Source of the DNA: a virus
Direction: 5' to 3' (one strand)
Length of the DNA: 44,443 bases
Virus record (IMG/VR): IMGVR_UViG_3300028535_000182
Span: 1-44,443 of that record
The notes beneath the pieces are model-generated. The model had not been told where the DNA came from. It ran no database searches and worked only from the letters and a program-made list of their open reading frames with translations. Positions 783-20,533 of the stretch are shown one piece after another (positions within the stretch are counted from its first letter, which is position 1; every line of letters begins with the position of its first letter). Made by a program: the position numbers and the translations under genes.

Positions 783-959
783 CTATTTGTTTTTCCAACC
801 TTTGTTTATTTCATCTGACACTAGATAACGCCATATTTTTGTACGAACTTTCTTCCGCCAAGGTCTAAGATCTTTGAAGATCCATATAAGTGTACCGATG
901 CTAAAGCATATTGCTAGAAAATAAAATATTACTTTGAATACTGTTATTAATCCAATCAT
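783..959 (-). CDS. Membrane microprotein, 58 aa (array member 9)
   Basis: The first 28 or so residues are hydrophobic (MIGLITVFKVIFYFLAICF), followed by a basic tail with the RPWRKK motif and a KGWKNK end. This gives one transmembrane segment with a probable cytoplasmic basic tail. Its ATG overlaps the TGA of the preceding microprotein (ATGA), a sign of translational coupling. It is the last gene of the nine-gene array and ends 4 bp from the convergent virion-like gene. Function unknown. Confidence 0.6.
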   Translation of the reverse strand: MIGLITVFKVIFYFLAICFSIGTLIWIFKDLRPWRKKVRTKIWRYLVSDEINKGWKNK

Positions 960-1198
960 CTACCTTGAGTAAGATCCCTTACCCGTTTCTTTCGTAGACG
1001 TTCTGTTCGTTCTTTTTCTTTACCGCTAATAAGCCATACAAATAATATATGAACAACAATAAAGTTAAGCCAGAAGCCATTTGTTGTAAAGCCACCAAAG
1101 AACAGTGGAACACCTACAAACACTATTATCATTAAAAAGAGATACTGATAGATGTATTTTTTTCTATCTTTATCTATTACTAATTGACCCAAACTCAT
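956..1198 (-). CDS. Two-TM membrane microprotein, 80 aa (array member 8)
   Basis: Two hydrophobic segments (about residues 17-37 and 42-60) lie between a charged N-terminus (DKDRKK) and a strongly basic C-terminus (KEKERTERLRKKR). The start at 1198 is chosen because its ATG overlaps the stop of the upstream gene as ATGA; an in-frame ATG at 1231 would lengthen it by 11 residues but lie inside that gene. Function unknown. Confidence 0.65.
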   Translation of the reverse strand: MSLGQLVIDKDRKKYIYQYLFLMIIVFVGVPLFFGGFTTNGFWLNFIVVHILFVWLISGKEKERTERLRKKRVRDLTQGR

Positions 1199-1362
1199 TC
1201 CCAAGATTCCTTTTCTATTGTTGGTTGCCATATAGTATGTCCTTTATACCAAGCCAATCCAAAACCTACACAGGCAAGAAAAACCATTAAGCAAAGGACC
1301 GCTACTGCTTCTTTGAACATTTGTTTATTGCCATTACTAAATTGATTCTTGTTTATTTTCAT
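1195..1362 (-). CDS. Membrane microprotein, 55 aa (array member 7)
   Basis: A polar N-terminus precedes one transmembrane segment (AVAVLCLMVFLACVGFGLAW) and a short tail ending EKESWE. The start at 1362 overlaps the upstream stop as ATGA, which favours it over an internal ATG at 1320. Its own stop overlaps the next start in the same way. Function unknown. Confidence 0.55.
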   Translation of the reverse strand: MKINKNQFSNGNKQMFKEAVAVLCLMVFLACVGFGLAWYKGHTIWQPTIEKESWE

Positions 1363-1451
1363 TTTTCAATCCACGTTACTATGAGTCCAAATGCTACTGA
1401 TACAATCACTAACATAAAAAACCAAAACAGATATGTCATTCCAAACATCAT
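1359..1451 (-). CDS. Membrane microprotein, 30 aa (array member 6)
   Basis: Almost entirely one hydrophobic helix (MMFGMTYLFWFFMLVIVSVA) ending VTWIEK. The ATG at 1451 lies one base after the upstream TAG. An in-frame ATG at 1466 would add five residues and overlap the previous gene. Function unknown. Confidence 0.5.
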   Translation of the reverse strand: MMFGMTYLFWFFMLVIVSVAFGLIVTWIEK

Positions 1452-1452
1452 A

Positions 1453-1536
1453 CTATTTCTTTCCATCCTTTTTAAAAGAGTCATACACGCACCATATAAC
1501 AAAAAGAGGAACGACTATGAGTAAGAACGTGCCCAT
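1453..1536 (-). CDS. Membrane microprotein, 27 aa (array member 5)
   Basis: One hydrophobic helix (MGTFLLIVVPLFVIWCVY) is followed by a basic tail, DSFKKDGKK. The ATG overlaps the preceding TAA as TAATG. The helix-plus-lysine-tail design matches the other array members. Confidence 0.5.
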   Translation of the reverse strand: MGTFLLIVVPLFVIWCVYDSFKKDGKK

Positions 1537-1613
1537 TACCTTTTCCTTCTATAGTCCCATATACACCAGGCTATAAAGCCAATTACTAAAACTACGAATA
1601 CTATTTCAAACAC
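1536..1613 (-). CDS. Membrane microprotein, 25 aa (array member 4)
   Basis: It starts with GTG and encodes a hydrophobic helix (MFEIVFVVLVIGFIAWCIW) with a basic DYRRKR tail. A GAGG Shine-Dalgarno-like stretch precedes the GTG, and the TAA overlaps the next ATG. Very short; support comes from its position in the chain. Confidence 0.45.
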   Translation of the reverse strand: MFEIVFVVLVIGFIAWCIWDYRRKR

Positions 1614-1625
1614 TTTTAATCCTCA

Positions 1626-1691
1626 TCATATATTGCCAACAATGATTGCAAATACTATGAATACAATTACTAATATATAAACAGAGGTCAT
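1626..1691 (-). CDS. Membrane microprotein, 21 aa (array member 3)
   Basis: A bare hydrophobic helix of 21 residues (MTSVYILVIVFIVFAIIVGN plus one), with no charged tail. It begins 6 nt after the upstream stop. It is the shortest member and its reality rests on array context. Confidence 0.4.
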   Translation of the reverse strand: MTSVYILVIVFIVFAIIVGNI

Positions 1692-1697
1692 AGTATC

Positions 1698-1805
1698 TTA
1701 TAATACCCAAACTCCTGCATAGTAGTTGTAACCCAACTGTACAAGTGTTAATACCGCTAGAGTAATAAGAACACCTAATATAATGTTAATAATCCAATTG
1801 CCCAT
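1698..1805 (-). CDS. Membrane microprotein, 35 aa (array member 2)
   Basis: A single hydrophobic helix (NWIINIILGVLITLAVLTLV) is followed by an aromatic C-terminus (YNYYAGVWVL). The ATG lies one base after the TAA of the first array gene. Function unknown. Confidence 0.45.
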   Translation of the reverse strand: MGNWIINIILGVLITLAVLTLVQLGYNYYAGVWVL

Positions 1806-1806
1806 A

Positions 1807-1896
1807 TTAATCCTTAAACAACGACCAGTACAACCATATCAATAATAATATAGGTCCTCCTATAAAAATAATTGGTACGATAATATCTGCTATCAT
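1807..1896 (-). CDS. Membrane microprotein, 29 aa (array member 1)
   Basis: The first gene of the array: a hydrophobic helix (IIVPIIFIGGPILLLIWLYW) ending SLFKD. An AATAAGTA late-like box lies 10 nt upstream of its ATG, so one promoter could serve all nine genes. Confidence 0.45.
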   Translation of the reverse strand: MIADIIVPIIFIGGPILLLIWLYWSLFKD

Positions 1897-2012: not shown

Positions 2013-2816
2013 CTATTTTTCTCTTTTTTCCCAACCATCTTTAGACCACACAACACCTTCTCGCCATTTTTTGAGAATCTTATGACTAGTACCATAAAAT
2101 TTTATTGGGTCGGTACCATATGGGCAACGCCAATCGCTATGAATAACAGAATCAATGGCCCACTTGCGTTCTTGGCACCACCAACATTTACGGCATTCAT
2201 ATTCTGTAACTGACGTACAACTATTTGTAATTGTATTAAAACATGGAAACAGTCCTAGCATCCATTGTGCATCAACTAAAACTTTTTTATTAATATCTTT
2301 AAACGGGTGGCAAACACCAACACCATACAAAGGTTTTTTAGTTTTGGCTATCTGTCCCGGAGATCGATTATCGTCTTGGCGAACGTACCAACTGTCTGGT
2401 TCAACAAAAGTAAATGTATCGTCTGGATTAGCAGTTAGTCCCCACCAACATTTAAATTCATGTGCTGACCAGTTGTTTTCTTCTCTAATCTCTTTGTATA
2501 GTCCTTCGAGCAATGAGCCTTTTGTTGTTCCGATGTGTTCATGGCTAACTCGAAATCGTTGGTAAATGTTAATATCAGGAAATTCTCTCCTCATATGTTT
2601 AACAACTAAACTTCCACGATACAATGCACATGGGTCATATGGATAAGCACAGTGACCACAATATACAGGAATGTTCAAATCCTTTTCTCGTATCTGACAA
2701 CATAACATATACATTAGTGTTGCCGAATCCATTCCGCCACTAACTGAGATGTAGATACCTTTAGTACCTTCAGGAATGGTTGCTTCAAGTGTTCCGAATT
2801 TTGTTTTAACTTCCAT
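2013..2816 (-). CDS. QueC-like PP-loop ATPase
   Basis: The N-terminus carries the PP-loop of N-type ATP pyrophosphatases (SGGMDS, residues 26-31). The C-terminal third has four cysteines spaced C-x7-C-x2-C-x2-C (ending CRKCWWCQER), matching the zinc site of QueC, which makes the 7-deazaguanine precursor preQ0 using ATP. At 267 aa it is longer than a typical QueC and its middle is divergent. No queD, queE or folE is recognisable in the window, so the substrate may differ. Its start overlaps the upstream cupin gene by 11 bp, so the two are co-transcribed. Confidence 0.55.
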   Translation of the reverse strand: MEVKTKFGTLEATIPEGTKGIYISVSGGMDSATLMYMLCCQIREKDLNIPVYCGHCAYPYDPCALYRGSLVVKHMRREFPDINIYQRFRVSHEHIGTTKGSLLEGLYKEIREENNWSAHEFKCWWGLTANPDDTFTFVEPDSWYVRQDDNRSPGQIAKTKKPLYGVGVCHPFKDINKKVLVDAQWMLGLFPCFNTITNSCTSVTEYECRKCWWCQERKWAIDSVIHSDWRCPYGTDPIKFYGTSHKILKKWREGVVWSKDGWEKREK

Positions 2817-3129
2817 ATATCATTAAAAAATATAATTCTTCTTTTCCGTCATTCCAAACTTCGTGTGTGGTTCCGTCCGGTACTAAAACTATATCGCCTG
2901 GTTTAACATTAACTTTTGGGTTCTCGTCTAGTTGCATTATGCCTGTTCCCCTTACAAACATATATATTTCTTCATGACCGGAGTGTTTATGTCTATAAGA
3001 ATCACAGTTAGGCTTTATAGTCATACCAGATAACACCATTGTTTTTAGAGTTTCGTTGTCAACAACTGTATAGTTTGATTTGTTTACAGTTGTTTTTCCA
3101 TCAGTATTCCAATCGCCGGATAGTTTCAT
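2806..3129 (-). CDS. Small cupin-domain protein
   Basis: Single-domain cupin of 107 aa. Motif 1 is visible as HKHSGHEE (residues 47-54) followed by a glycine turn, and motif 2 as PGDIVLVPDGTTHEVWN (77-93) with H89. These residues bind a metal in the family. The start at 3129 is chosen because an ATTAAATA box lies 5 nt upstream; a longer frame reaching 3201 would contain this promoter. Cupins of this size are often sugar or small-molecule isomerases or sensors. Pairing with the PP-loop ATPase suggests a shared small-molecule role. Confidence 0.65.
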   Translation of the reverse strand: MKLSGDWNTDGKTTVNKSNYTVVDNETLKTMVLSGMTIKPNCDSYRHKHSGHEEIYMFVRGTGIMQLDENPKVNVKPGDIVLVPDGTTHEVWNDGKEELYFLMIYGS

Positions 3130-3134
3130 ACTGA

Positions 3135-3142
3135 TATTTAAT
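3135..3142 (-). promoter_or_regulatory. Late-type promoter box ATTAAATA
   Basis: Lies 5 nt before the cupin ATG on the minus strand, with no Shine-Dalgarno between them. Confidence 0.5.
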
Positions 3143-3210
3143 TGACAAAACACCATGGCACGAAAAATATGCGTAAGAAATGTGTACATACTTGTACGCA
3201 TTAACGAAGT

Positions 3211-3217
3211 CTAAATA
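3211..3217 (+). promoter_or_regulatory. Late-type promoter box CTAAATA
   Basis: Lies 8 nt before the ATG at 3226 and matches the TAAATA core seen before many genes of the window. Confidence 0.5.
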
Positions 3218-3225
3218 CACATATT

Positions 3226-3414
3226 ATGAAATGGGCACTAGTGATGTATTTTTTTTATTTTGGACCGTGGGGCGGTTGGGGAGAAACGGATAGACGTTAT
3301 TATCCAGATCAGCAATCTTGTATAGAAGCACAAAAAATCTTTGAAGAAGATAATCTACAATTTGAGCACGTGCTGGCTCGAATTAAAATTAGATGTGAGG
3401 AAATAAAAGACTAA
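3226..3414 (+). CDS. Small hydrophobic-start cysteine protein, 62 aa
   Basis: Begins MKWALVMYFFYFGPWGGWGE, a short hydrophobic stretch that could be a signal peptide or membrane anchor. A mature part follows with two cysteines about 25 residues apart (SCIEAQKIF and IRCEEIKD). It is a tandem paralogue of the next gene, which shares the MKWAL start. The two-cysteine layout also resembles genes at 10673, 11456 and 11787. Function unknown; a periplasmic disulfide protein is possible. Confidence 0.55.
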   Translation: MKWALVMYFFYFGPWGGWGETDRRYYPDQQSCIEAQKIFEEDNLQFEHVLARIKIRCEEIKD

Positions 3415-3415
3415 T

Positions 3416-3619
3416 ATGAAATGGGCATTAATTGTATATTTTTTTGTAGCACCGGGAATATGGAAGGATGCCGAGTCATTAGGATACGACGGGTGGTATA
3501 GAATGTTTTTCGATTCAGAAAACATTTGTAAACAATACGAAAGACGGTTCAACGAGACGCCATCTGTAAGAATTAAAGGTGTGTGTGAACTTTCTATAGC
3601 ACCAGATTACTTAAAATAA
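3416..3619 (+). CDS. Small hydrophobic-start cysteine protein, 67 aa (paralogue)
   Basis: Starts MKWALIVYFFVAPG, nearly identical to the previous gene at DNA and protein level, then diverges. Two cysteines (NICKQYERRF and KGVCELS) keep the same approximate spacing. It begins one base after the previous stop. This looks like a tandem duplication with fast divergence of the exported part. Function unknown. Confidence 0.55.
   Translation: MKWALIVYFFVAPGIWKDAESLGYDGWYRMFFDSENICKQYERRFNETPSVRIKGVCELSIAPDYLK
3616..3619 (+). other. Promoter-stop overlap
   Basis: The ATAAATA box at 3616-3622 includes the TAA stop of the gene at 3416, so the late promoter is embedded in the end of the upstream coding region. 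The same compact arrangement occurs at 5517-5523. Confidence 0.4.
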
Positions 3620-3622
3620 ATA
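3616..3622 (+). promoter_or_regulatory. Late-type promoter box ATAAATA
   Basis: Lies 5 nt before the ATG at 3628 (context ATAAATATTGGCATG). It overlaps the stop codon of the previous gene. Confidence 0.55.
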
Positions 3623-3627
3623 TTGGC

Positions 3628-4392
3628 ATGAAGCCAAAATATCATCTAAGCAATGGATGTAGTTTCAGTACGAAAAAAGCCTTCTTAAATTGTCATCAAC
3701 GATTAAGTGAACTGTTAGGATTAGAACCTACTATTCAATTGGCCAAAGGTGGTAGAGGCAACGATAGGATGGTAACCACTACCATGCATTGGTTCTACAA
3801 GAACCCAGAACGATTTGCAGACACATTTGTTTCAATAGGATGGACATCTGGGCATCGTTGGGATTTTATACACGGACCAACAGATACAACCACAAAAGGT
3901 ATAAAAGGAGAAATTGCAAAGTTTTCTCACCAATGGGGTACTTGGAGGCTGTGGGAAAATGATCGTATTGCACGTGACCCTGACATAGACATTAATCTTG
4001 CATCAGCAGTAAGACTTTACACTAACATTCTTACGTTACAATATTTTTTTAAGTACCATAAGATCCCTTATGTAATGTATTGGGCATTAACAAACGACTT
4101 GCCGGAAGATGGTGATTTAAAAGTATTAAAGGACCAAATAGATCGTAAACACTTTATGAACTTCGAAACGTCAGATCATGTAAAAGAAAACATAAAAATA
4201 TACAATGAGATGAAACAAAAGCCAGATAAAGTGACAATTCCTAACAAAGAGTATGTGCAATCACATTTTGAGTTTTGTGCTTTCCACGGATGGACTTTGC
4301 GAGTTAACGACGCACACCCTAATAAAGAAGGACATCACGAATGGGCAAACTTATTACAGCACTTTATAGTCGAAAATAAAATTATTTGTTGA
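3628..4392 (+). CDS. SGNH-hydrolase-like protein
   Basis: The N-terminus SNGCSFS (residues 8-14) resembles the phage variant of SGNH block I, where the nucleophilic serine sits in a GCS turn. GGRGNDRM (41-48) fits block II-III glycine and asparagine positions, and the C-terminal DAHPNKEGHHEWA supplies an Asp-x-x-His pair as in block V. Such proteins may remove acyl groups from glycans or lipids. The family is inferred from motif order only. It has its own late-type promoter. Confidence 0.5.
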   Translation: MKPKYHLSNGCSFSTKKAFLNCHQRLSELLGLEPTIQLAKGGRGNDRMVTTTMHWFYKNPERFADTFVSIGWTSGHRWDFIHGPTDTTTKGIKGEIAKFSHQWGTWRLWENDRIARDPDIDINLASAVRLYTNILTLQYFFKYHKIPYVMYWALTNDLPEDGDLKVLKDQIDRKHFMNFETSDHVKENIKIYNEMKQKPDKVTIPNKEYVQSHFEFCAFHGWTLRVNDAHPNKEGHHEWANLLQHFIVENKIIC

Positions 4393-4419
4393 GGCAATTT
4401 ATATTAAAATAGTAAAAAA

Positions 4420-4426
4420 ATAAATA
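4420..4426 (+). promoter_or_regulatory. Late-type promoter box ATAAATA
   Basis: Lies 5 nt before the protease ATG (context ATAAATATTAGTATG), almost the same sequence as the box at 3616. Confidence 0.55.
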
Positions 4427-4431
4427 TTAGT

Positions 4432-5520
4432 ATGAAAAGATTTATTCCATTCATACTAATTTTATTGTTTTCTACGGTATCTTTCGCAGGACATCTAGAC
4501 TCAAAATGGGAAAGAACATTTAATAGTGTTGTTTTGGTTACTAGTGAAACAGTTTTAACAAAAGCGCCAATAACGGAGCCAGTACCGGATATTTTTGAAA
4601 ATGGTGAGCCTAAACAACCACCACCTTTTCAATCACCAAAATCAATTTTGCCCAAGTTTGTTATGGGAACAGGGTTCTTTATTAATGAAATTCATGTAGT
4701 AACAAATTATCATATTATTAAAAACTTTGATAAAATTAAAATATACGCATATAATCATCCGTTTGAAATAACAGATGTTAAGTTAGTAGGATATGATGCA
4801 GAAATTGATATTGCAGTATTAGAAATCGGAGAAACGGTTGTTCATGATGTTCTTAAATTTTCTAAAGTAGCACCAAAAGTTGGAGATACTGTTTATGCAC
4901 TAGGCCATGGATTAAATCAAGTTTGGTCATTAACAAAAGGCATCTTGAGTTATGATTATAGAAGAAACCCAAATACTAGTTTTGTTCATTATATTCAAAC
5001 AGATGCAGTTATAAATTCAGGAAACTCTGGAGGACCATTACTTAATGAATCCGGTGAAGTATTAGGAGTCAACACTTTATTAATCTCACCAGACAAGTAT
5101 TATGTTGGGTATGGTTATGTAATACCAACTCTATTAGTAGAGCGAGCCGTAAATCAAATTTTGGCAACAGGTACACACGTTAAACCATCAATTGGTATTG
5201 TGATGGGTATTGTTGATGACAAAGAGAAATACAAAAAACTTTTATCTACAAATGTAAAGCACTATTTAGAAGTTAAAGAAGTTATGCCAGATTCCCCAGC
5301 ATTTCTTTTTGGGGTACAAGCAGGCGATATAATAATTTCAATGGATGGGCACGACATTCAAGTAATGCCTAATGTAATTGAAACGTTATGGAAAAGATAC
5401 CCGGGCGATACAATAACCATGAAAGTTTATAGGAATGGCGAATATTTTTTAATTGATGTAGTACTTGGAAAAGCCGAACCTGTAAAAGCAGATGTTTTGC
5501 CGTTCGGTGATACCGAATAA
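4432..5520 (+). CDS. Secreted HtrA/Deg-type serine protease with one PDZ domain
   Basis: A Sec signal peptide (about residues 1-19, ending SFAG) leads into a trypsin-fold domain with the full triad: His94 in TNYH, Asp126 in AEIDIAVL and Ser199 in GNSGGPL. A single PDZ domain follows at about 255-350 (MPDSPAF, GVQAGDII, PGDTITMKVYRNG). It is 362 aa, shorter than two-PDZ DegP and like DegS or one-PDZ HtrA. It should act in the periplasm on misfolded or envelope proteins. A proline-rich insert (PFQSPK region) lies before the protease core. A bacterial-type housekeeping protease is unusual in a phage. Confidence 0.85.
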   Translation: MKRFIPFILILLFSTVSFAGHLDSKWERTFNSVVLVTSETVLTKAPITEPVPDIFENGEPKQPPPFQSPKSILPKFVMGTGFFINEIHVVTNYHIIKNFDKIKIYAYNHPFEITDVKLVGYDAEIDIAVLEIGETVVHDVLKFSKVAPKVGDTVYALGHGLNQVWSLTKGILSYDYRRNPNTSFVHYIQTDAVINSGNSGGPLLNESGEVLGVNTLLISPDKYYVGYGYVIPTLLVERAVNQILATGTHVKPSIGIVMGIVDDKEKYKKLLSTNVKHYLEVKEVMPDSPAFLFGVQAGDIIISMDGHDIQVMPNVIETLWKRYPGDTITMKVYRNGEYFLIDVVLGKAEPVKADVLPFGDTE

Positions 5521-5523
5521 GTA
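5517..5523 (+). promoter_or_regulatory. Late-like box ATAAGTA
   Basis: Overlaps the protease stop codon and lies 5 nt before the ATG at 5529 (context ATAAGTATTAGCATG). Confidence 0.4.
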
Positions 5524-5528
5524 TTAGC

Positions 5529-5618
5529 ATGAAGTTTTACATAATATCAGGATTACTGATGATAGGATTCTTTTTGTTTCTATATATGTTATGGTTACAA
5601 GGAACTCCGGTAGTTTAA
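5529..5618 (+). CDS. Membrane microprotein, 29 aa
   Basis: A single hydrophobic helix (YIISGLLMIGFFLFLYMLWL) followed by QGTPVV. It follows the HtrA gene by 8 bp and has its own late-like box. It resembles the array members at 783-1896. Function unknown. Confidence 0.45.
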   Translation: MKFYIISGLLMIGFFLFLYMLWLQGTPVV

Positions 5619-5630
5619 TAATAACTTTAC

Positions 5631-5659
5631 TTGACATAAAAATAAATTAATATTATAAT
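5631..5659 (+). promoter_or_regulatory. Consensus sigma70 promoter
   Basis: TTGACA (5631-5636), a 17-nt spacer and TATAAT (5654-5659) match the consensus perfectly. The predicted start is at about 5666-5667, the first base of the tRNA-like RNA. Confidence 0.8.
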
Positions 5660-5666
5660 AAGAATT

Positions 5667-5798
5667 GCGGTCTTGGCGGAACTAGGGAGACTTAGATAGC
5701 ATAGACGCGATGGGTTGCTGGCACGAAGTTAGTGTTATTACATTGGAAATTCATCCGTTCGCGAGAACGTAAGGGTTCAACCCCCTTAGACCGTACCA
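5667..5798 (+). ncRNA. Noncanonical tRNA-like RNA with Leu-type ends and an enlarged core
   Basis: Acceptor strands GCGGTCT (5667-5673) and AGACCGT (5788-5794) pair over 7 bp with one G-T, followed by ACCA. The T arm AAGGG/CCCTT around TTCAACC is intact, and CGTTC-GCGA-GAACG is a long variable arm. The 5' part TGGCGGAAC is like tRNA-Leu. At 132 nt it is about 45 nt longer than a tRNA with a long variable arm. GATGG...TCATC could close an anticodon stem over a 30-40 nt loop that holds a further hairpin (TGGCAC/GTGTTA). No clear anticodon can be assigned. It could be an intron-bearing or degenerate tRNA-Leu, or a tRNA mimic; it is too short and lacks motifs for tmRNA. Confidence 0.55.
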
Positions 5799-5813
5799 TA
5801 GGGCCAAAGACCC

Positions 5814-5841
5814 ACCTGGCGTCGTCTTGGTGACGCCAGGT
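5814..5841 (+). terminator. Strong hairpin after the tRNA-like RNA
   Basis: ACCTGGCGTC (5814-5823) pairs perfectly with GACGCCAGGT (5832-5841) around an 8-nt loop. There is no T-run afterwards, so it may be a processing or 3'-protecting structure rather than a classical intrinsic terminator. Confidence 0.5.
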
Positions 5842-5859
5842 TAAACATCCTGGTAGTGG

Positions 5860-5888
5860 TTGACAATTTATTAGTTTTAAAGTAATAT
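5860..5888 (+). promoter_or_regulatory. Sigma70 promoter of clpP
   Basis: TTGACA (5860-5865), a 17-nt spacer and TAATAT (5883-5888). The -10 ends 6 nt before the clpP ATG, so the mRNA would start at about the start codon (leaderless). The host polymerase could read it early. Confidence 0.7.
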
Positions 5889-5894
5889 TAAATT

Positions 5895-6497
5895 ATGGGT
5901 TCACTAGTTCCAATAGTAATTGAGCAAACAAGCAAAGGAGAAAGATCATACGATATATTTTCTCGCTTGTTAAAAGACAGAATAATAGTACTCGACGGAC
6001 CAATTGAAGAACACACGTCATCTATTTTATGTGCCCAGTTGCTATTTTTAGAATCGCAATCACCCGCAAAAGATATTGTGATTTATATAAATTCCCCCGG
6101 TGGATCTGTTACAGCCGGAATGGCGATATATGATACTATGCAGTATGTTAAATCAGATATACAAACTATTGTTATAGGACAAGCCTGTTCCATGGGATCA
6201 CTATTATCGTCGTCCGGTACTAAAGGAAAAAGACTTATCCTACCCCATGCACGACATATGATACACCAACCCTTAGGTGGAGCAAAAGGACAAGCAACAG
6301 ATGTACAAATTCAAGCAAACGAACTCTTAAGATGGAAAAAAGAACTTACAAAAATTTACGAAAAGCACACTGGCCAAACATATAAAAAATTAGAAGAAGA
6401 TATGGAACGTGACAACTATATGACTGCAGAAGAATCAATTAAGTATGGGTTAGCAGACAAGATTGTTTTCAGCAGAGAAGAAGATAACAAACTATAA
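5895..6497 (+). CDS. clpP: ATP-dependent Clp protease proteolytic subunit
   Basis: Full-length ClpP of 200 aa. The N-terminus ([19 protein letters not shown]) matches the family's processing region. The triad is complete: Ser99 in GQACSMGS, His124 in MIHQPLGG and Asp173 in ERDNYMT. The oligomer-forming motif [11 protein letters not shown] is also present. It should form a tetradecameric barrel and needs a ClpX or ClpA ATPase, not seen here, so it probably works with host unfoldases. It could help remodel the host proteome or mature particles. It has its own sigma70-type promoter and almost no leader. Confidence 0.93.
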
Positions 6498-11427: not shown

Positions 11428-11440
11428 TTACCAAAATACA

Positions 11441-11447
11441 ATAAATA
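11441..11447 (+). promoter_or_regulatory. Late-type promoter box ATAAATA
   Basis: Lies 8 nt before the ATG at 11456. Confidence 0.5.
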
Positions 11448-11455
11448 CTACTATA

Positions 11456-11785
11456 ATGAAAAAGTGTTTACTAATAATTTTGGCTATACTATTCCTTTCA
11501 ACTCAAACAATGGCGTTAGATTATAAGCCAGGTAAAAAACATTTAAACAAAGAAGGTGTTATTGGTTTATTATTAATTCTTAACGGAAAAATGATAGAAC
11601 ACGTTTTCAAACCAAACTTATCTGCTTGTATGAAATCTAAAAGAATAGCACAAAGAGAAATGGATTCAAGTAATGATAAAGAAGGTAGAGTTCAATTTGT
11701 TTGTAAAATACTTGTAGTAGATCTAGAGGAAGACTCTCAAACTAAATACGGTATGAGAATAACAAAGGTACACTCAGGAGTATAA
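11456..11785 (+). CDS. Exported cysteine-pair protein, 109 aa
   Basis: Sec signal peptide KKCLLIILAILFLSTQTMAL, probably cleaved after residue 20. The mature part has ACMKSKRIAQRE followed about 20 residues later by VQFVCKIL. The next gene has the same C-x-K-x-K-R-x-A-x-R plus F-x-C arrangement, so the two are tandem paralogues. The cysteines could form a disulfide in the periplasm. Function unknown. Confidence 0.6.
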   Translation: MKKCLLIILAILFLSTQTMALDYKPGKKHLNKEGVIGLLLILNGKMIEHVFKPNLSACMKSKRIAQREMDSSNDKEGRVQFVCKILVVDLEEDSQTKYGMRITKVHSGV

Positions 11786-12957: not shown

Positions 12958-13032
12958 GCCGGAGTGGCTCAACGGTAGAGCAATTGATTTGTAATCAATA
13001 GGTTGGGGGTTCGATTCCCTCCTCCGGCACCA
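12958..13032 (+). tRNA. tRNA-Thr(TGT)
   Basis: Complete cloverleaf: acceptor GCCGGAG/CTCCGGC, D stem GCTC/GAGC, anticodon stem ATTGA/TCAAT with loop TTTGTAA giving anticodon TGT for ACA codons, and T arm GGGGG-TTCGATT-CCCTC. The discriminator base A and CCA are encoded. A-ending codons are frequent in this AT-rich genome, so it could support late translation. A weak TTGATT-18-TAATAT promoter lies upstream. Confidence 0.93.
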
Positions 13033-13147: not shown

Positions 13148-13534
13148 ATGGAAACAATCAAAAATTTAATCGCAAAACCGGCACCATGGCTTTATTTTGT
13201 CCTTGTTGTTGCTTTGTTGATTATTGTAATGAATAAGTCAGGAACAGTTAACGACCTAGAAGCAAGTTTAGATAATGCTAATGCAGAAATTTTAGCATCA
13301 GAAACTCTAACGGAATCTTTGTCGAACGAAATAGCACTTCGCAATGATGCAATAGCAGGATTAGAAACCGCAATTGTAGGTTGGGAAGCAGATGCAATTG
13401 AAGTTAATACTAGACTGAATGCAGTTGATTCTGATAAAGGTGCTTTAGAAGTAGAAGTAGGCACTTTAACAGGGTTAGTTGAAAGTTTACAAACTCAATT
13501 AAGCACTTGCACAGAAGCATCTACTGTTCAGTAG
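13148..13534 (+). CDS. Inner-membrane coiled-coil protein, 128 aa (i-spanin-like?)
   Basis: An N-terminal membrane segment (LYFVLVVALLIIVMN) is followed by a long acidic Ala/Leu/Glu heptad helix (NDLEASLDNANAEI, then VEVGTLTGLVESLQTQL) and a cysteine near the end (LSTCTEAS). It is a paralogue of the gene at 10038 in both topology and membrane-segment sequence. The tethered-rod form fits i-spanins, but no lysis gene is recognised beside it. Confidence 0.5.
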   Translation: METIKNLIAKPAPWLYFVLVVALLIIVMNKSGTVNDLEASLDNANAEILASETLTESLSNEIALRNDAIAGLETAIVGWEADAIEVNTRLNAVDSDKGALEVEVGTLTGLVESLQTQLSTCTEASTVQ

Positions 13535-13797: not shown

Positions 13798-14823
13798 CTA
13801 AAACGATACTGGAGATATTGAATATCGGCGTTTGAGTAAGGATATTATATAAGAACCATTGTCTATGTTTGCTATTTCTTTGCCCCACACATTTATCCAT
13901 TTATTTAATTTTTGTTTATCACTGTCTGGTAGATGTCTTATAGATAGTTTATCCGGGTGAACTAATGGTATTATATCCCAACCTAATCTATTTTTATTCT
14001 TAATGTTTAATTTTTTTTGCCAGTACCAATCACCAAGTTTGTCTATGTTACTCCAGCCTTTGTTATGTAAAGTAGTGTATATAAAAATATCGTAATTTGT
14101 ATTCTGAATAATATCGTCAACAAAGTTATCAATCTTATTCCAGTCAGCACCTTCACGCACAATAGAATTAAGATCTCCAAATGCATCAATACTAACTGAA
14201 ATTTCTACATTACGACATTGTTTAAATATTTTATGATCTTCTTCTGTTAATAAAAAATGACCATTAGTTGTATATTCTAGTTCAAGATTTTTTAGTGAGT
14301 CATTATCTATTGTTTGCAAAATTTTTCTATGACTGCTCGTCATGAAAGGCTCACCGCCCATGAATTTTATTTTTCTAATAGTACTAGGTAAGGTAGGTAA
14401 CTTTGGCAGTATTTTAATTCCTTCTTTAGAAGGCTTATCAGGATTACTTTTTGTCCATTTGGCACTACTAAACTCTCCTAAACACATTTCACAAGTTAAG
14501 TTGCATATGTTATTTGGATAAATTTCTATGTCTTGAAGTTCTACTTTTGCGTCTGGATACATAGAATTAAACCGCATACGCAAACTTTTTTTGCCGTGTT
14601 CTTCTTCTGAATAACATTTTGAACACGTAGCAATTTTCTCCCCACGATTAGTTTTTTCTCTTATTTCATTATACTCTTTACTGTGTAGTAAGCCATTTAG
14701 ATCCCCATCAAATTGTTTAATTGCTATATCAGATCTACAACAAGCATGAACTTTTCCATCAAAACGTATGTTGGTATGCTTGTAAAAAGCGGCACACGTG
14801 GTCTTGTTTGTAGATATTGTCAT
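13798..14823 (-). CDS. Radical SAM protein with N-terminal cysteine cluster
   Basis: The radical SAM [4Fe-4S] motif CNLTCEMC has cysteines at 107, 111 and 114, with the GGEP SAM-binding motif at about 156-159. Before it lies a second cysteine set (C10, C28, C29, C67, C70), as in the twitch/SPASM-like arrangement where an auxiliary cluster precedes the core. 341 aa. It is similar in design to the protein at 19133. Substrate unknown; peptide or sugar modification are both possible. A CTTAAATA box lies 5 nt upstream. Confidence 0.8.
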   Translation of the reverse strand: MTISTNKTTCAAFYKHTNIRFDGKVHACCRSDIAIKQFDGDLNGLLHSKEYNEIREKTNRGEKIATCSKCYSEEEHGKKSLRMRFNSMYPDAKVELQDIEIYPNNICNLTCEMCLGEFSSAKWTKSNPDKPSKEGIKILPKLPTLPSTIRKIKFMGGEPFMTSSHRKILQTIDNDSLKNLELEYTTNGHFLLTEEDHKIFKQCRNVEISVSIDAFGDLNSIVREGADWNKIDNFVDDIIQNTNYDIFIYTTLHNKGWSNIDKLGDWYWQKKLNIKNKNRLGWDIIPLVHPDKLSIRHLPDSDKQKLNKWINVWGKEIANIDNGSYIISLLKRRYSISPVSF

Positions 14824-14828
14824 ATCAA

Positions 14829-14836
14829 TATTTAAG
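14829..14836 (-). promoter_or_regulatory. Late-type promoter box CTTAAATA
   Basis: Lies 5 nt before the radical SAM ATG at 14823 on the minus strand. Confidence 0.5.
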
Positions 14837-14879
14837 TGATCCTCCCCCCTGGTCTACCATTTAATAATAACTACTATAC

Positions 14880-15176
14880 ATGAAGCGGTTTTTTACTTTA
14901 CAATTAAAAGGGTATAATGAAAATGTACCAATTGACTTTGCAAGAAGTCTTATAGTAGACGAATCTCCATTTGTAAAATATCTATCCGATAATAATGCTC
15001 TTGCTATACGCCATATGAAATCTAGAGCCACAATGGAGTTATATGGGGATCCAAGATATCTTATACTAGCAAAAATAAAATATGGTAAAGTATTGTCGGG
15101 TAAAATGAATTTTATTGAACTTTTTATTTCACATCAATTGCAAAGAAAAATGATTCAAAATTTTACAACCCCTTAA
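14880..15176 (+). CDS. Hypothetical protein, 98 aa
   Basis: Begins MKRFFTLQLKGYNENVPIDF and is mildly basic with no membrane segment or known motif. It is divergent from the radical SAM gene at 14823 and abuts the convergent gene with no gap. The AT-rich upstream ACTACTATAC resembles the promoter context at 11447. A role with the neighbouring radical SAM enzymes is possible but unproven. Confidence 0.45.
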   Translation: MKRFFTLQLKGYNENVPIDFARSLIVDESPFVKYLSDNNALAIRHMKSRATMELYGDPRYLILAKIKYGKVLSGKMNFIELFISHQLQRKMIQNFTTP

Positions 15177-15371
15177 TTATTTTTTATTAGGATTAGTTAG
15201 TAAATCTAAAGTTATTATTTTATGAATTGGAACAACTACGTTGTTTCTTTCTTGCTCTAATTTTTTACGGAATTTCCGGGCATCGGATTTTTTTCGCAGG
15301 TCTTCCTGCTTTTGTTGTTTGCGAAACGATCGCTCTCCACGTTGAGACTTATAAGTGTGGTGTATTCCCAT
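15177..15371 (-). CDS. Small basic hypothetical protein, 64 aa
   Basis: Highly charged helix (RGERSFRKQQKQEDLRKKSD, then ARKFRKKLEQERNN) followed by a hydrophobic tail (VVVPIHKIITLDLL). AGGAAA precedes the ATG. It lies 23 bp downstream of the radical SAM gene on the same strand. It could be its partner or a nucleic-acid-binding protein; it has no obvious RiPP leader. Confidence 0.45.
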   Translation of the reverse strand: MGIHHTYKSQRGERSFRKQQKQEDLRKKSDARKFRKKLEQERNNVVVPIHKIITLDLLTNPNKK

Positions 15372-15394
15372 AATTTTCCTAACATATCTATATG

Positions 15395-16375
15395 CTACTT
15401 ATCTTTAAATTTTGTGGCTAATTGATCAAAACCGTTTCTGCATACACTCTTTGAACACGTCCACGCCTCTTGTTGCCATGTTACATTTTGTTTAAGTACA
15501 TTACCAATCCGGCCACCTTGTCGGCACCAACCACGCCATACCCATCCTTTATTATCTACAATAAATTGGTCTACTCCTGCGTTACATTTATAACCTTCGA
15601 AGTTCCAATTCTTTGCTATTTTACCAGATTTTTTATCTAATGTTTCTCTAGTTAAGTCATGTCTTGCTCTGCTTTGCCCATCATATTCTAAATTTCCAAA
15701 ATACATAGTTTGTTCTGGATCCCAATTTTCTCCTCGTTCTTCAAAGTAATATTTTAATTGATATGTTTTGTATGGTAAGAATTGAAACCCTTTAGTAAAA
15801 TTAGAATATAATAATTTTAATTCAATTGGATATCCTTTGGCTTTAAATATTTCATATGTGTGTATAGCAGTATTCCATTGCTCATCATCATGTGTGCAGT
15901 GCATCATTATTCTAGTTTTTACTTTTCTATCATTATTATAATCTTTTTGAGACATTAAAAAGTCTACAACGTTTTCAATATGTTGTTGGTTCGCCCACTC
16001 TGTATGATAACTTATTTCAACTAAAGAAAAATAATGATAATGTTGTTTCCACCATTCCATTGATGCTGATCCATTTGTAACTAATCTGTTTTTTAATTGT
16101 CGATTACCCATACGTTGACACATAGCAAGTAGGCCCGGATTTAATGTAGGTTCTCCGCCAACAAATTCAAAAGCAGGAGCACGGTCTAACATTCGTAAAG
16201 AAGAAACAGTGTATTGAATAGCATTGGCAAGAATTTCTGCCTCTCCAAATTTAACTTTACTAGAATGCAGAATTGTTGGACAATACGAGCAGTCGTAGTT
16301 GCAGACATTACCAAATAGCCATTGGATACGAGTAGTCGTCATTTCTTGGTCGGTCATTATATCGTATTTAAACAT
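15395..16375 (-). CDS. Radical SAM protein with C-terminal cysteines
   Basis: CNYDCSYC (C25, C29, C32) starts the radical SAM barrel, with GGEPT at 73-77. A C-terminal group (YKCNAG, RGWCRQGG, WTCSKSVC) suggests an auxiliary iron-sulfur site of SPASM type. About 326 aa from the ATG at 16375; an upstream ATG at 16414 would run into the divergent gene's start. It differs from the twitch-type paralogues by having the extra cysteines after the core. Substrate unknown. Confidence 0.8.
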   Translation of the reverse strand: MFKYDIMTDQEMTTTRIQWLFGNVCNYDCSYCPTILHSSKVKFGEAEILANAIQYTVSSLRMLDRAPAFEFVGGEPTLNPGLLAMCQRMGNRQLKNRLVTNGSASMEWWKQHYHYFSLVEISYHTEWANQQHIENVVDFLMSQKDYNNDRKVKTRIMMHCTHDDEQWNTAIHTYEIFKAKGYPIELKLLYSNFTKGFQFLPYKTYQLKYYFEERGENWDPEQTMYFGNLEYDGQSRARHDLTRETLDKKSGKIAKNWNFEGYKCNAGVDQFIVDNKGWVWRGWCRQGGRIGNVLKQNVTWQQEAWTCSKSVCRNGFDQLATKFKDK

Positions 16376-16383
16376 TTTATTAT

Positions 16384-16391
16384 TGTAAATA
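16384..16391 (+). promoter_or_regulatory. Late-type promoter box TGTAAATA
   Basis: Lies 8 nt before the ATG at 16400 and inside the short divergent gap with the gene starting at 16375. Confidence 0.45.
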
Positions 16392-16399
16392 TAATTGAA

Positions 16400-18283
16400 A
16401 TGAACAAGCATCAAAACGTATTATTGCTTCACGTTCCAAATATAAGTTTAGTTGGTAGAAGGTTTTATAATGATATTAATGCCGGAGGTATAACATTTTC
16501 TGGCGGTCTTGAAGCAACAGGAAATATAGTTGATCAGTATGACTTAAATGCAAAATTGAACACCTATAGAAGAGAAGTTTCTGATTTTAGTATGTCAGAT
16601 AATGACTTAAAAACATTATTAGATATTGAATTGTTAAACGAGTATTTAGAAGGTCAAGTAGCAGTCAACGGTTCAGTTGCTTTTGAAAATAAAGAAAGAT
16701 ACATTAATATACAGTCAATAGGATTTGGAGATTTATATGATGATATGGTTGAGTTGGAGCATGATAGTAATTATTCCATATTACCATTTTTAACAAAGTA
16801 TTTGTTGAACGGAATTGATTTTAACAAATATGATTGGATTGGATTATCTGTTACTCGTAGAGGACAACAACTCTGGATGTTAAGACTTACATTACATTTT
16901 TCGTTATTACTAACATCGTACATTAAACAAAATTTTAATGGAAATATATACATTGGTGGTAATACTGTCTTAGATAAGTCAGATGCAAAACATTTAATAA
17001 AAATTTATAATACAATTAATGTAAAACATCAGCCAACAAGTTTTGTTCGAGGATATGCAGAGTCCGGAATGGAAAAGTTTATTAAATCTGAAAAACCGCT
17101 TCAGAAGTATTCTTTTAAAAATACAAACGAAATACAAGTACAACACGAATATCAATTTCAGCATATGAATTACCCAAAAGTAACTTTTGAAAATAATGAT
17201 GATGTATTAGCAGATCCAAAAGAATTTATAAATTCTAAAATGTTAGCAAAGTATACTAAATTAGAAACAGTTGAGCCTTTTCAACTATATCCATATAAGT
17301 TTAGTGAAGGCTGTCGATTTAAATGTTCGTTTTGTTCAATGGCAACAGTAGATGGATTTTCTGTACTTACACCAAAACAAACAGTTGATCATTTGGAAGA
17401 AATGGGAAATCATGGAGCCAAGCATTTTAGATTTTTTAATGATCAAATTAATTGGAAAAAAACATGGTTACTTGATTTTTGTAATGAGATTGTTAAAAGA
17501 AATTTAAAAATTACTTGGAACGATTCTGCAAATTTACGACTTGCCACTGCAGAAATATATAGTGCAATGAAAGAAGCAGGGTGTATTAAGTTGTGGTATG
17601 GTACAGAAACTATTGTAGACGAGACGTTAGCATTAATTAGAAAGATGATAACAAAAGATAAAATCATAAAAAATTTAGAACTTGCCCACGAGCACGAGAT
17701 TTATAATTGTTGTAATTTTATTTTTAATTTTCCATGGGAGACAGATGAACATTTCGCAGACTTGCTAAAATTTGAAAAGAAATATGTAGGAAATAAAGTA
17801 ATTAATGCATATCAAAATAATGCGTTCTGTGTGCAAAAAGGAGCCGAGTATCTAATGAACCCCGCAAAGTTTAAAATAGAAATACTTGAACAAGATGCTT
17901 TAGTTTGGGACCAGATTCATTATAATGAAGTTGGTGGTAAACAATGGGATGAAATAGTAAAAGATGCTTGGAGGAAGTCAGAAGTTCTTAATGAGCAAGG
18001 AAACCTTTGGTCGTTTGAAGTTAAAGAGATAAGAGCAAATGATTTTATTTTAACAGCATTACATAAAGCAGGTTACACATTTAAAGAAAAATTACAATTT
18101 TATGATGATGTTGATAAAACATTAACTCACGAAGAACTTATTTTGTGGGCAAAACGTATAGGAACAACATCATATCAGTTGCCAAGAAAAGTTCGTAAGC
18201 AAGTTGCAAGAATTGAAAAATGGAAAAAAATACATAAAACTTCTGCGATAGTAATAACACCAAAAGCAGATTACGAAAAATAA
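16400..18283 (+). CDS. Large B12-binding-type radical SAM enzyme
   Basis: About 627 aa. The first 230 residues resemble a cobalamin-binding Rossmann-like region (YDWIGLSVTRRG and NGNIYIGGNTV), without a clear DxHxxG motif. The radical SAM core follows with CRFKCSFC (C305, C309, C312) and downstream GTETI and FNFPWETDE as in B12-radical SAM proteins. The ATG at 16400 is chosen over one at 16322 because of the promoter box and the start of homology-like sequence. It overlaps the convergent PLP-type gene by 13 bp. Likely a methyltransferase or ring-forming enzyme; substrate unknown. Confidence 0.75.
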   Translation: MNKHQNVLLLHVPNISLVGRRFYNDINAGGITFSGGLEATGNIVDQYDLNAKLNTYRREVSDFSMSDNDLKTLLDIELLNEYLEGQVAVNGSVAFENKERYINIQSIGFGDLYDDMVELEHDSNYSILPFLTKYLLNGIDFNKYDWIGLSVTRRGQQLWMLRLTLHFSLLLTSYIKQNFNGNIYIGGNTVLDKSDAKHLIKIYNTINVKHQPTSFVRGYAESGMEKFIKSEKPLQKYSFKNTNEIQVQHEYQFQHMNYPKVTFENNDDVLADPKEFINSKMLAKYTKLETVEPFQLYPYKFSEGCRFKCSFCSMATVDGFSVLTPKQTVDHLEEMGNHGAKHFRFFNDQINWKKTWLLDFCNEIVKRNLKITWNDSANLRLATAEIYSAMKEAGCIKLWYGTETIVDETLALIRKMITKDKIIKNLELAHEHEIYNCCNFIFNFPWETDEHFADLLKFEKKYVGNKVINAYQNNAFCVQKGAEYLMNPAKFKIEILEQDALVWDQIHYNEVGGKQWDEIVKDAWRKSEVLNEQGNLWSFEVKEIRANDFILTALHKAGYTFKEKLQFYDDVDKTLTHEELILWAKRIGTTSYQLPRKVRKQVARIEKWKKIHKTSAIVITPKADYEK

Positions 18284-19146
18284 ATTTTTGCAAGATAAAA
18301 AAGAGCATCGCGAGTAGGCACTGCCCGAATAATTTTACCATTATCGTCTGTTGCAAAGGCAACGTGTATTGCAGGTGAAGGTTTTAGATTAGGACATACT
18401 TTTATTATTGTATCATAAAGTTTTCCATATTTCTTCCAAAAGAAATCAGTACCAAATTTATTCATTAGTTCGATACCAGAAATTATATTTGTTATTGCAA
18501 AAAAATCATTGTTGTTCATAAATTCAACAGGTCCATTAATTGGTTGTCTTGCATATCGTATACCACATCGTTGTTCACTTATACCAAATGCTTTGCTTAA
18601 ACTAAAACTTATTGTTTGTATTGCTGGGTGATCAACGTTGAAATTAATTCCTTTACTGCAAGGATACCATGCGGCATCCAAGTGAACAGGAATATTTTCT
18701 TGCAAACATTTTTCTAAAATTTGAGACATTTCAGGATGTATGCTATAAGTGTGACAACAAAAAGGAGCAGACATTAATAATACATCTCCATTAATTAATG
18801 TATCTATTGTACGTTTTTTTATATTTGGATATATTGTTTCATGATAAAAAAAGTCGCCTTCGAATATAACAACACAGTTTGGATTTGTTATGTAAATGTC
18901 ATTAATGCTTTGTGTTACACCAAATATAACTTTTCTATCTGGAAATGTATCAAGACCAGTAAATGAAATTAATTCATGATTGTGTATCCATTGATCGAAT
19001 ATTTTTTTGAAGTCGTCAATTAAATTATTACGCCATTGGTCACTATAATTAATCATACTTAGAAATTGAATAATTTCTTTGTCCTTCATTGGACGTTTGC
19101 GTTTAGCATTTCTATCGATTAAAGAATTTAATTTATTTGTATCCAT
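18271..19146 (-). CDS. PLP-dependent aminotransferase-fold enzyme
   Basis: 291 aa with the fold-type I signatures: an aspartate for the pyridine nitrogen in PVHLDAAWYPC (D157) and the Schiff-base lysine in SFSLSKAFGISE (K185), followed by an Arg-rich strand (QRCGIRYARQ). It is shorter than the usual 350-450 aa, lacking part of the small domain. It overlaps the upstream radical SAM gene by 14 bp, so they are coupled. It could aminate a sugar or amino acid precursor made by the island. Confidence 0.65.
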   Translation of the reverse strand: MDTNKLNSLIDRNAKRKRPMKDKEIIQFLSMINYSDQWRNNLIDDFKKIFDQWIHNHELISFTGLDTFPDRKVIFGVTQSINDIYITNPNCVVIFEGDFFYHETIYPNIKKRTIDTLINGDVLLMSAPFCCHTYSIHPEMSQILEKCLQENIPVHLDAAWYPCSKGINFNVDHPAIQTISFSLSKAFGISEQRCGIRYARQPINGPVEFMNNNDFFAITNIISGIELMNKFGTDFFWKKYGKLYDTIIKVCPNLKPSPAIHVAFATDDNGKIIRAVPTRDALFYLAKIYFS

Positions 19147-20533
19147 TTTGTTCCATCATTAGTTTAATATGTGGTGCATGATCTTGTAATCTTTTTTTAC
19201 GTATTCCGTTAAGCCAATTAATATAATCACAAGCAAGTTTAATCATGCTTTGAGATGGCTCAGATTTATGATGAACATGGGTGTCCCCTTCATATAAACT
19301 ATCTTTAATATTATCAAAATCTGGTTTGTTGATGCCTAGTGTATTTTCCTGATTATAATCAGAAACAGGAATTTCATGATTTGAAAAACTATCAAAATGA
19401 ACCAATTCCTGATAACCATCTAGATAATTTTCTGGTACAAACCATTTCCCTACTTCTGCGTATACACTAGTTGTCCACTTTTTTTTAAATGTAGGCAAAG
19501 TCATATAAGCATTCATCCATGGTTCCATTACTACATTAAATGACATAAGATACTTTGTTGCTTTAGATTCAAATCTAGAAAAATAAGAAACAATATCATT
19601 TAGATGCATTATGTTATAAAGGCTTACTGTTACATTAATGTCTAACATTTTTATACTTGGCATTTTCATTAGTTGTATAATATTTTCATTTACACGTTTC
19701 CAACTAAATCCTCTTATCCATTCGTATATTGGTCCTATTCCGTCTATACTAAGGTTAAGTTCTAAGTTTGAGAACTTGCTTAATATACTTCTCATTTTGA
19801 GACTAATGGTTGTTGCATTGGTAACAATTATTAATTTCACGTCTGGATTTAATTTACTAATACGATCTAAAAAAGCAATACAACGTTTGTCATATAAAGG
19901 TTCACCACCTTTAATCATTATAGATTCGTAGGTTTGTATATTGTCAATAATTGAATCAATAAAACGTTGATTTAAAATATAAGATTGAAAAGGCTCGTGC
20001 GGTGTACCCCACGGTCTACCATATATAGGAGATATTCTATCTTTTAATGTTTGTGGCATTAGTTTCTCTTGTTGCATCCATCCTGAACTGTGAGTACGAT
20101 TACACATAGCACAGGCCAGATTGCAGGTATTACTAAAGTTTAATTCAATTGCTTTTAGTTTTGGTTTATACTTTTGGCAAAATTCATCAGTTAATTGTTG
20201 ACGTTTAATTGGTGCTGGAGTATTAATAAAATATCTTTCAATTTTTCTCTGGCGTTGACTTCTTATTCCGCTTTCTTCTTTTTTATAACATACTTCGCAA
20301 GACTCGTTTCTTTCTCCCTTGCTCATTTTTTCTCTTATTGAGGCTAGATGTTTACTGTCAAAAAGTTGCGGAGCAGTCTGGGTAGAAGTTTTCATATCAG
20401 CAATAGTATGTCCTGGGTGTGTATTCCAGCAAGGACAAGGTTGTGCTTTTCCTGTTGGGTCCACAGTTAGTCCATCAAAAGGATAAAAACACCAAAAATC
20501 TTTCTTAGTTTGTTTTTTAGTTTGCATTTTCAT
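19133..20533 (-). CDS. Radical SAM protein with N-terminal cysteine cluster, long form
   Basis: CNLACAMC (C137, C141, C144) and GGEPL define the radical SAM core. An N-terminal set (C15, C33, C35, C79, C82) mirrors the protein at 13798, so these are paralogues. A C-terminal extension of about 100 residues has no cysteine pattern. 466 aa. It is coupled to the downstream PLP-type gene. Substrate unknown. Confidence 0.8.
   Translation of the reverse strand: MKMQTKKQTKKDFWCFYPFDGLTVDPTGKAQPCPCWNTHPGHTIADMKTSTQTAPQLFDSKHLASIREKMSKGERNESCEVCYKKEESGIRSQRQRKIERYFINTPAPIKRQQLTDEFCQKYKPKLKAIELNFSNTCNLACAMCNRTHSSGWMQQEKLMPQTLKDRISPIYGRPWGTPHEPFQSYILNQRFIDSIIDNIQTYESIMIKGGEPLYDKRCIAFLDRISKLNPDVKLIIVTNATTISLKMRSILSKFSNLELNLSIDGIGPIYEWIRGFSWKRVNENIIQLMKMPSIKMLDINVTVSLYNIMHLNDIVSYFSRFESKATKYLMSFNVVMEPWMNAYMTLPTFKKKWTTSVYAEVGKWFVPENYLDGYQELVHFDSFSNHEIPVSDYNQENTLGINKPDFDNIKDSLYEGDTHVHHKSEPSQSMIKLACDYINWLNGIRKKRLQDHAPHIKLMMEQNGYK

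Follow-up and report, generated by a model that had tools for sequence, protein, structure and literature searches.

Tightly packed arrays of up to nine membrane microproteins behind a T4-type late-promoter motif in related phages

Most of what is known about marine jumbo phages comes from metagenomes, and few of their lysis genes have been assigned. The holins and pinholins of well-studied phages are usually encoded by one or two genes that are longer than most members of the array described here. Type I toxins, another group of short membrane-acting peptides, carry antisense antitoxins, and we know of no case in which they form tandem coupled arrays. The lysis cassettes of Gordonia phages contain up to four transmembrane (TM) proteins, and one set, present in CaiB and other DR phages, has overlapping frames (PMC9671378). 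According to the authors of that study, such multi-TM cassettes are undescribed for phages of Gram-negative hosts (PMC9671378). T4 late promoters consist of an 8-bp TATA box, which is separated from the downstream start site by about one helical turn (PMC2988020). The late consensus is TATAAATA/NATAAATA, the latter representing the form of marine cyanomyoviruses (PMC2984593).

Layout, relatives and coding status of the array

The window, i.e. the whole analyzed stretch of 44,443 bases from an IMG/VR virus record, harbors nine consecutive hydrophobic frames of 29, 35, 21, 25, 27, 30, 55, 80 and 58 aa on the minus strand between positions 783 and 1896. All nine had been proposed in a first-pass annotation and are present where it placed them; their hydrophobic nature is borne out by a Kyte-Doolittle mean of at least 2.07 over a stretch of up to 19 residues in every frame. 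The first three genes, m1 (1807–1896, 29 aa), m2 (1698–1805, 35 aa) and m3 (1626–1691, 21 aa), encode one TM helix each. The single helix is followed by an RRKR tail in m4 (1536–1613, 25 aa), which has a GTG start behind AGGA, and by a KKDGKK tail in m5 (1453–1536, 27 aa), which overlaps m4 by TAATG. The equally single-helix m6 (1359–1451) has 30 aa, or 35 aa if an upstream ATG is used. An ATGA overlap leads to m7 (1195–1362, 55 aa), the core member of the penultimate type (GNK...LAWYKGH). Two TM helices and a basic tail are found in m8 (956–1198, 80 aa), for which an in-frame ATG at 1231 behind AAAGGA offers an alternative start and a length of 91 aa. The terminal core member m9 (783–959, 58 aa), again joined by ATGA, comprises a TM helix and a basic tail. 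The gaps between neighbors from m1 to m9 are 1, 6, 12, -1, 1, -4, -4 and -4; tight junctions of the kinds reported earlier (ATGA, TAATG or one-base gaps) are thus present, and their number is six of eight instead of five. Judged by hydropathy, the array members are small inner-membrane proteins with one to three TM helices, which is a trait of holins and pinholins. Most of the frames fall under the usual limits of gene calling, and whole membrane modules may therefore be missing from annotations.

The DnaB-like helicase of the window is 51% identical to that of Pseudomonas phage PA5oct and 45% to that of Agrobacterium phage Atu_ph07, which are both jumbo phages, and 76–88% to those of many IMG/VR viral contigs. 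Gene content suggests that the phage and these close relatives are marine. A low-stringency tblastn search of related phage contigs recovered m2, m7 and m9 in the same order and on one strand of contig G023 (IMGVR 3300008952_000034), whose locus is shared by G007 with 99.9% identity over the overlap. The similarity is evident for m2 and the first gene of the G023 array (50% over 34 aa, E 4e-5) and for m9 and the last one (47.5% over 40 aa, E 8e-8), and weak for m7 and a 41-aa gene at the same place of the array (31% over 36 aa, E 0.21). The G023/G007 array contains six frames of 34, 31, 24, 28, 41 and 89 aa, and all five junctions are TAATG or ATGA.

Further arrays, designated by L numbers, were retrieved with a scan for the late-promoter motif plus chained TM frames, with family HMMs and with a final profile search. 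Four genes are present in L209 (23, 23, 30 and 58 aa), L285 (23, 23, 30 and 47 aa) and L221 (48, 53, 20 and 74 aa), two in L203 (29 and 76 aa), L217 (29 and 46 aa), L284 (29 and 49 aa) and L216 (22 and 72 aa), and one in L212 (46 aa). The total is ten lineages, and gene counts in the nine other than the window are 6, 4, 4, 4, 2, 2, 2, 2 and 1. The assignment of L221 is based on position and architecture more than on sequence, and the HMM score of its last gene is not independent, because the HMM included that gene. The first gene of L216 is clearly homologous to that of L209, and its last gene belongs to another family. A lone 37-aa gene with the motif PGxIMGLISSYRAGR is located on each of the distant contigs L289 and L290, the former of which also harbors baseplate-type, PAAR-like and gp25-like ORFs (named by reading the sequence).

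The ClpP gene (5895–6497, plus strand) is the syntenic landmark of the arrays. Its proximity to the array in both the window and G023 was the reason for fetching ClpP relatives with 10-kb flanks, and the homologous arrays are all located shortly upstream of the same ClpP gene (about 0.7–5.5 kb), on the opposite strand in the window and on the same strand in the other lineages. The QueC-like neighbor was rejected as an anchor (relatives of only 23–28%, without arrays nearby), the ORF at 249–779 found no match, and neither did the first 8 kb of the window in a megablast search against phages. A direct search of viral contigs with an 84-aa form of m8 retrieved no homologue outside this phage; a match in G033 among 38 related records (E=0.003, 27% identity) was judged to be chance. 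The m9/a6 and m2/a1 profiles matched in G023/G007 only. Two of the terminal proteins and the L290 homologue had no tblastn match in 50,697 phage records, and the terminal-protein profile retrieved nothing from PA5oct or Phosso. Its match in Atu_ph07 (E=0.016) and matches of 11–19 residues in Frateuria and Streptomyces genome contigs were judged to be chance as well.

The comparison of the ten lineages defines a conserved 3' end. The last gene encodes a TM helix with a strongly basic tail, and the closer relatives share PGxxMGLISSYRAGQRPHR; the alignment including m9 and a6 retains only two invariant columns. The penultimate gene encodes a short TM peptide with a KGH or GTL-type end, a family that is weak across its full range. 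The number of genes varies toward the 5' side, where microproteins of 21–35 aa are gained or lost. The core of the array is thus the KGH/GTL-type peptide followed by the basic-tailed TM protein, and the 5' members represent a lineage-specific expansion.

Our chain finder returned a chain of nine frames at the array, and the longest chain in order-3 Markov shuffles was three, both for the whole window (10 shuffles) and for the array block alone (200 shuffles). A homology-blind scan of 1.94 Mb of related contigs, which like all our collection scans is pattern-based, covers contigs that are fragments and misses divergent short proteins, recovered the window array and the homologous G023/G007 array. 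The remaining chains of at least four frames have mainly GTG or TTG starts; those of G013, G010, G031 and G032 were set aside for this reason, and the G013 chain also for its antisense position to a DnaK-like ORF. A stricter ATG-only scan of 3.5 Mb returned the L209 array too, along with a few chains of four frames in G013 and G038, none of which is preceded by the promoter motif. The chain finder was also applied to two cultured relatives, to the first 280 kb of PA5oct and the complete genome of Atu_ph07, and detected no comparable array in either.

Synonymous change exceeds non-synonymous change in eleven pairwise comparisons, with a dN/dS of 0.08–0.41 where dS was unsaturated and estimable (Fisher p from 0.026 down to 5e-8), and the third codon position is the least conserved one in most pairs. 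The tests cover the members with homologues, which in the window are m2, m7 and m9. One example is the closest pair, L209 and L285, which has kept the -7 and -1 overlaps and the ATGA at the third junction; not a single indel is found across the first three genes despite well-diverged synonymous sites, and the fourth genes diverge more. Given this selection and the kept overlaps, the conserved members can be neither chance frames nor remnants of a long protein. For members with homologues, our results therefore agree with the check that the first-pass annotation had named, i.e. frames found in relatives, dN/dS below 1 and overlaps kept. Its view of coupled membrane microproteins is supported by junctions, shuffles and selection: the window array is a real, tightly packed set of phage membrane microproteins, probably translationally coupled, and we are almost certain about its architecture, coding status and conservation.

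Late-promoter motif and conserved surroundings

A T4-type late-promoter motif, CAATAAGTACTAGTATTAT, is located at 1897–1915 on the minus strand directly before the first ATG of the array and conserved as CCAATAAGTACTATTATATG in G023/G007. The pattern TA[AT][AG]TA[CT] ends 4–10 nt before the first ATG in 10 of 10 arrays; the same placement is found at 95 of 680 long ORF starts (14%) and at 283 of 26377 ATGs (1.1%) in these phages, a contrast that is descriptive because the pattern was written after the arrays had been seen and the scan that found some of them required a similar motif. Homology alone, with no use of the motif, led to the arrays of L212, L217, L284, L285 and G023. Upstream of long ORFs in these phages, the 8-mers with the strongest enrichment include AATAAATA, TAAATACT and TATAAATA, and words of the TATAAATA/TAAATACT type are enriched approximately 20–27-fold. 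An upstream element of the TATAAATA class, which characterizes T4-type late transcription units, is present for the arrays, and it is likely that they belong to the late class. Since the motif is so close to the ATG, the first array gene is probably near-leaderless. Late motifs in these phages often end only 4–8 nt before an ATG, for example at 11439–11457 on the plus strand of the window, and near-leaderless late messages may be common among them.

A conserved non-coding DNA element (AATCACC..GGGTAATAAAATACCCCC) at 45–110 on the plus strand of the window occurs as a single copy near the array in relatives. Its consensus is CATGGTGG..ATCACC.GGTGG..ATAAAATACCCCCATATAAAAAAAATGCACAGCGG, and all ten lineages have it near the array; G016 and L226 contain it as well. 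The positions are 4450–4570 (minus strand) in L100, ~1857 in L203, ~564 in L209, ~426 in L212, ~1303 in L216, ~161 in L217, ~1510 in L221, ~623 in L284 and ~2367 in L285. Folding of the element as RNA predicted no pairs; it is possibly an origin or a regulatory site. Iteron-like TTGGTAAGG repeats are located further upstream in L100, L209 and L285. The window, L107 (G013) and L287 begin at or near the array locus (position 1), which suggests that a repeat, a variable region or a genome end breaks the assembly here.

Host-like genes surround the array: positions 2013–6497 of the window encode a QueC-like PP-loop protein, a cupin, a DUF6071 protein and a trypsin/PDZ protease (Pfam) in addition to ClpP. 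The region 13798–20533 contains genes for two radical SAM proteins confirmed by Pfam, one of which has a SPASM domain, and two more ORFs that appear radical SAM-like by reading of the sequence. A tRNA gene is present at 12958–13029, and the related contig L203 contains a glutamine riboswitch at 13424–13475.

Candidate functions of the array products

Searches of the tested members against PHROGs and Pfam gave no meaningful match to holin, antiholin or spanin families. The best match, m9 with PHROG 33815 of unknown function (E=0.0013), is as unconvincing as the other PHROGs and Pfam matches. The Rz-like profile reached only E=0.28 with m7, and the traits of two-component spanins (a long periplasmic coiled coil and a lipobox) are absent from the array members by reading. 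A secreted or anchored protein of 84–87 aa with a coiled-coil look is encoded shortly before the arrays of L212 (712–975), L284 (897–1154) and L285 (2461–2715), and appears spanin-like by eye. According to the positive-inside rule, 22 of 36 proteins are C-in, 7 are N-in and 7 undecided, a topology that is uncertain because several members have little charge asymmetry.

The late motif, membrane insertion and the lack of a soluble domain together point to a late action at the inner membrane. The main reading, to which we assign a probability of about 0.4, is a late inner-membrane complex, most likely holin-like, that acts in lysis. A T4-type late promoter 5–10 nt before the first ATG would give rise to a near-leaderless polycistronic message for a set of inner-membrane microproteins, and the downstream genes would be translated by re-initiation over the ATGA and TAATG junctions and short gaps, which could fix the order and ratio of the products. 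Each product is predicted to place one helix in the membrane, or two in the case of some terminal members, mostly with a cytoplasmic C terminus. The products may oligomerize late in the host inner membrane and permeabilize or depolarize it; as holin- or pinholin-like parts of the lysis program, their mixture might tune its timing to the host. We also tentatively propose that the array represents a new lysis or membrane-attack module of a marine jumbo phage group, in which a near-leaderless late message would yield a cocktail of up to nine single-helix peptides, with a two-gene 3' core and an expandable, lineage-specific 5' set. The lack of matches to holin, antiholin or spanin families and the presence of only one or two genes in some related loci speak against the lysis reading. 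In its favor, the Gordonia cassettes offer a precedent, and G023 encodes a glucosaminidase endolysin whose N terminus bears a hydrophobic segment. The endolysin gene is located about 2.7 kb from the G023 array on the same strand (L100 6840–7487, minus strand) and followed by TM frames of 40 and 25 aa, with which it possibly forms a lysis cassette. The remaining records with arrays gave no match to this endolysin, so that linkage of array and endolysin is seen in G023 only, and no peptidoglycan hydrolase was recognized among the scanned window ORFs.

A late hetero-oligomeric complex of the inner membrane could alternatively serve another purpose, such as the membrane-associated assembly or maturation of virions, envelope remodeling, or support of a secretion or proteolysis step supplied by the phage. 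A stoichiometric complex would be in keeping with the fixed order and dense packing of the genes, the position beside ClpP is constant, ClpP and a DegP-like protease are in the neighborhood, and one distant homologue, present as a single gene, has baseplate-type genes around it; yet a conserved catalytic or soluble domain is missing and a copy number of 1 to 9 among relatives is odd for a structured machine, which leaves this role possible but rather unlikely. Less probable are membrane-active peptides that arrest or poison host physiology in the manner of type I toxins and bring about late host shutdown instead of lysis: size and composition resemble membrane-acting toxins of 19–50 aa, but host arrest is less useful at such a late time. 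We are more doubtful still about superinfection exclusion by small membrane proteins that block the entry of competitor DNA. T4 Imm and SieB are small membrane proteins, and the rapid gain and loss of members fits phage–phage competition; however, the match of Pfam SieB to m8 is very weak and far under the cut-off (E=0.26, 11.3 bits versus 26), known exclusion families gave no match above threshold in the PHROGs and Pfam searches, and exclusion genes are typically early, so that the late motif before 10 of 10 arrays disfavors both a classical exclusion role and early takeover. Among the roles initially suggested for the locus, lysis timing is hence favored by the late motif, and exclusion or defense evasion, for which early expression is usually required, is not. 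A polytopic membrane protein in decay, or hydrophobic frames that arose by chance in AT-rich sequence, would account for nine hydrophobic segments in a row in a window of low GC content (0.32), but this reading is practically refuted by shuffles that never exceed three frames, a separate start for each frame, starts and stops kept in relatives, a dN/dS below 1 for each tested frame and homologues with 1, 2, 4 and 6 intact frames.

Comparison with known systems

Ten natural variants of one module, ranging from one to nine genes around a core, make its function and the logic of adding members directly testable, and the combination of a conserved late promoter with an overlap pattern can expose microproteins that protein searches miss. 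The type I toxin-like peptides TisB, Ibs and Hok resemble the array members in their length of 20–50 aa and their one hydrophobic helix. The holins and pinholins T4 T, lambda S and phage 21 S are small inner-membrane proteins without an enzymatic domain that are made late, as the array members probably are too, whereas the array shows no sequence match to them and has no adjacent endolysin in the window. The late transcription units of T4-like marine myoviruses share the TATAAATA/NATAAATA-class motif (PMC2984593), but here it is only 5–10 nt away from the ATG, which implies almost no leader. The Gordonia sets are similar in that several distinct small TM proteins are encoded in a row, poorly conserved and variously combined; they differ in having at most four genes with 1–4 TM helices each, mostly beside lysA and in phages of Gordonia hosts (PMC9671378). 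In contrast, the array comprises up to nine proteins, mostly single-helix ones of 21–35 aa, and is located in the vicinity of ClpP and preceded by a T4-type late-promoter motif.
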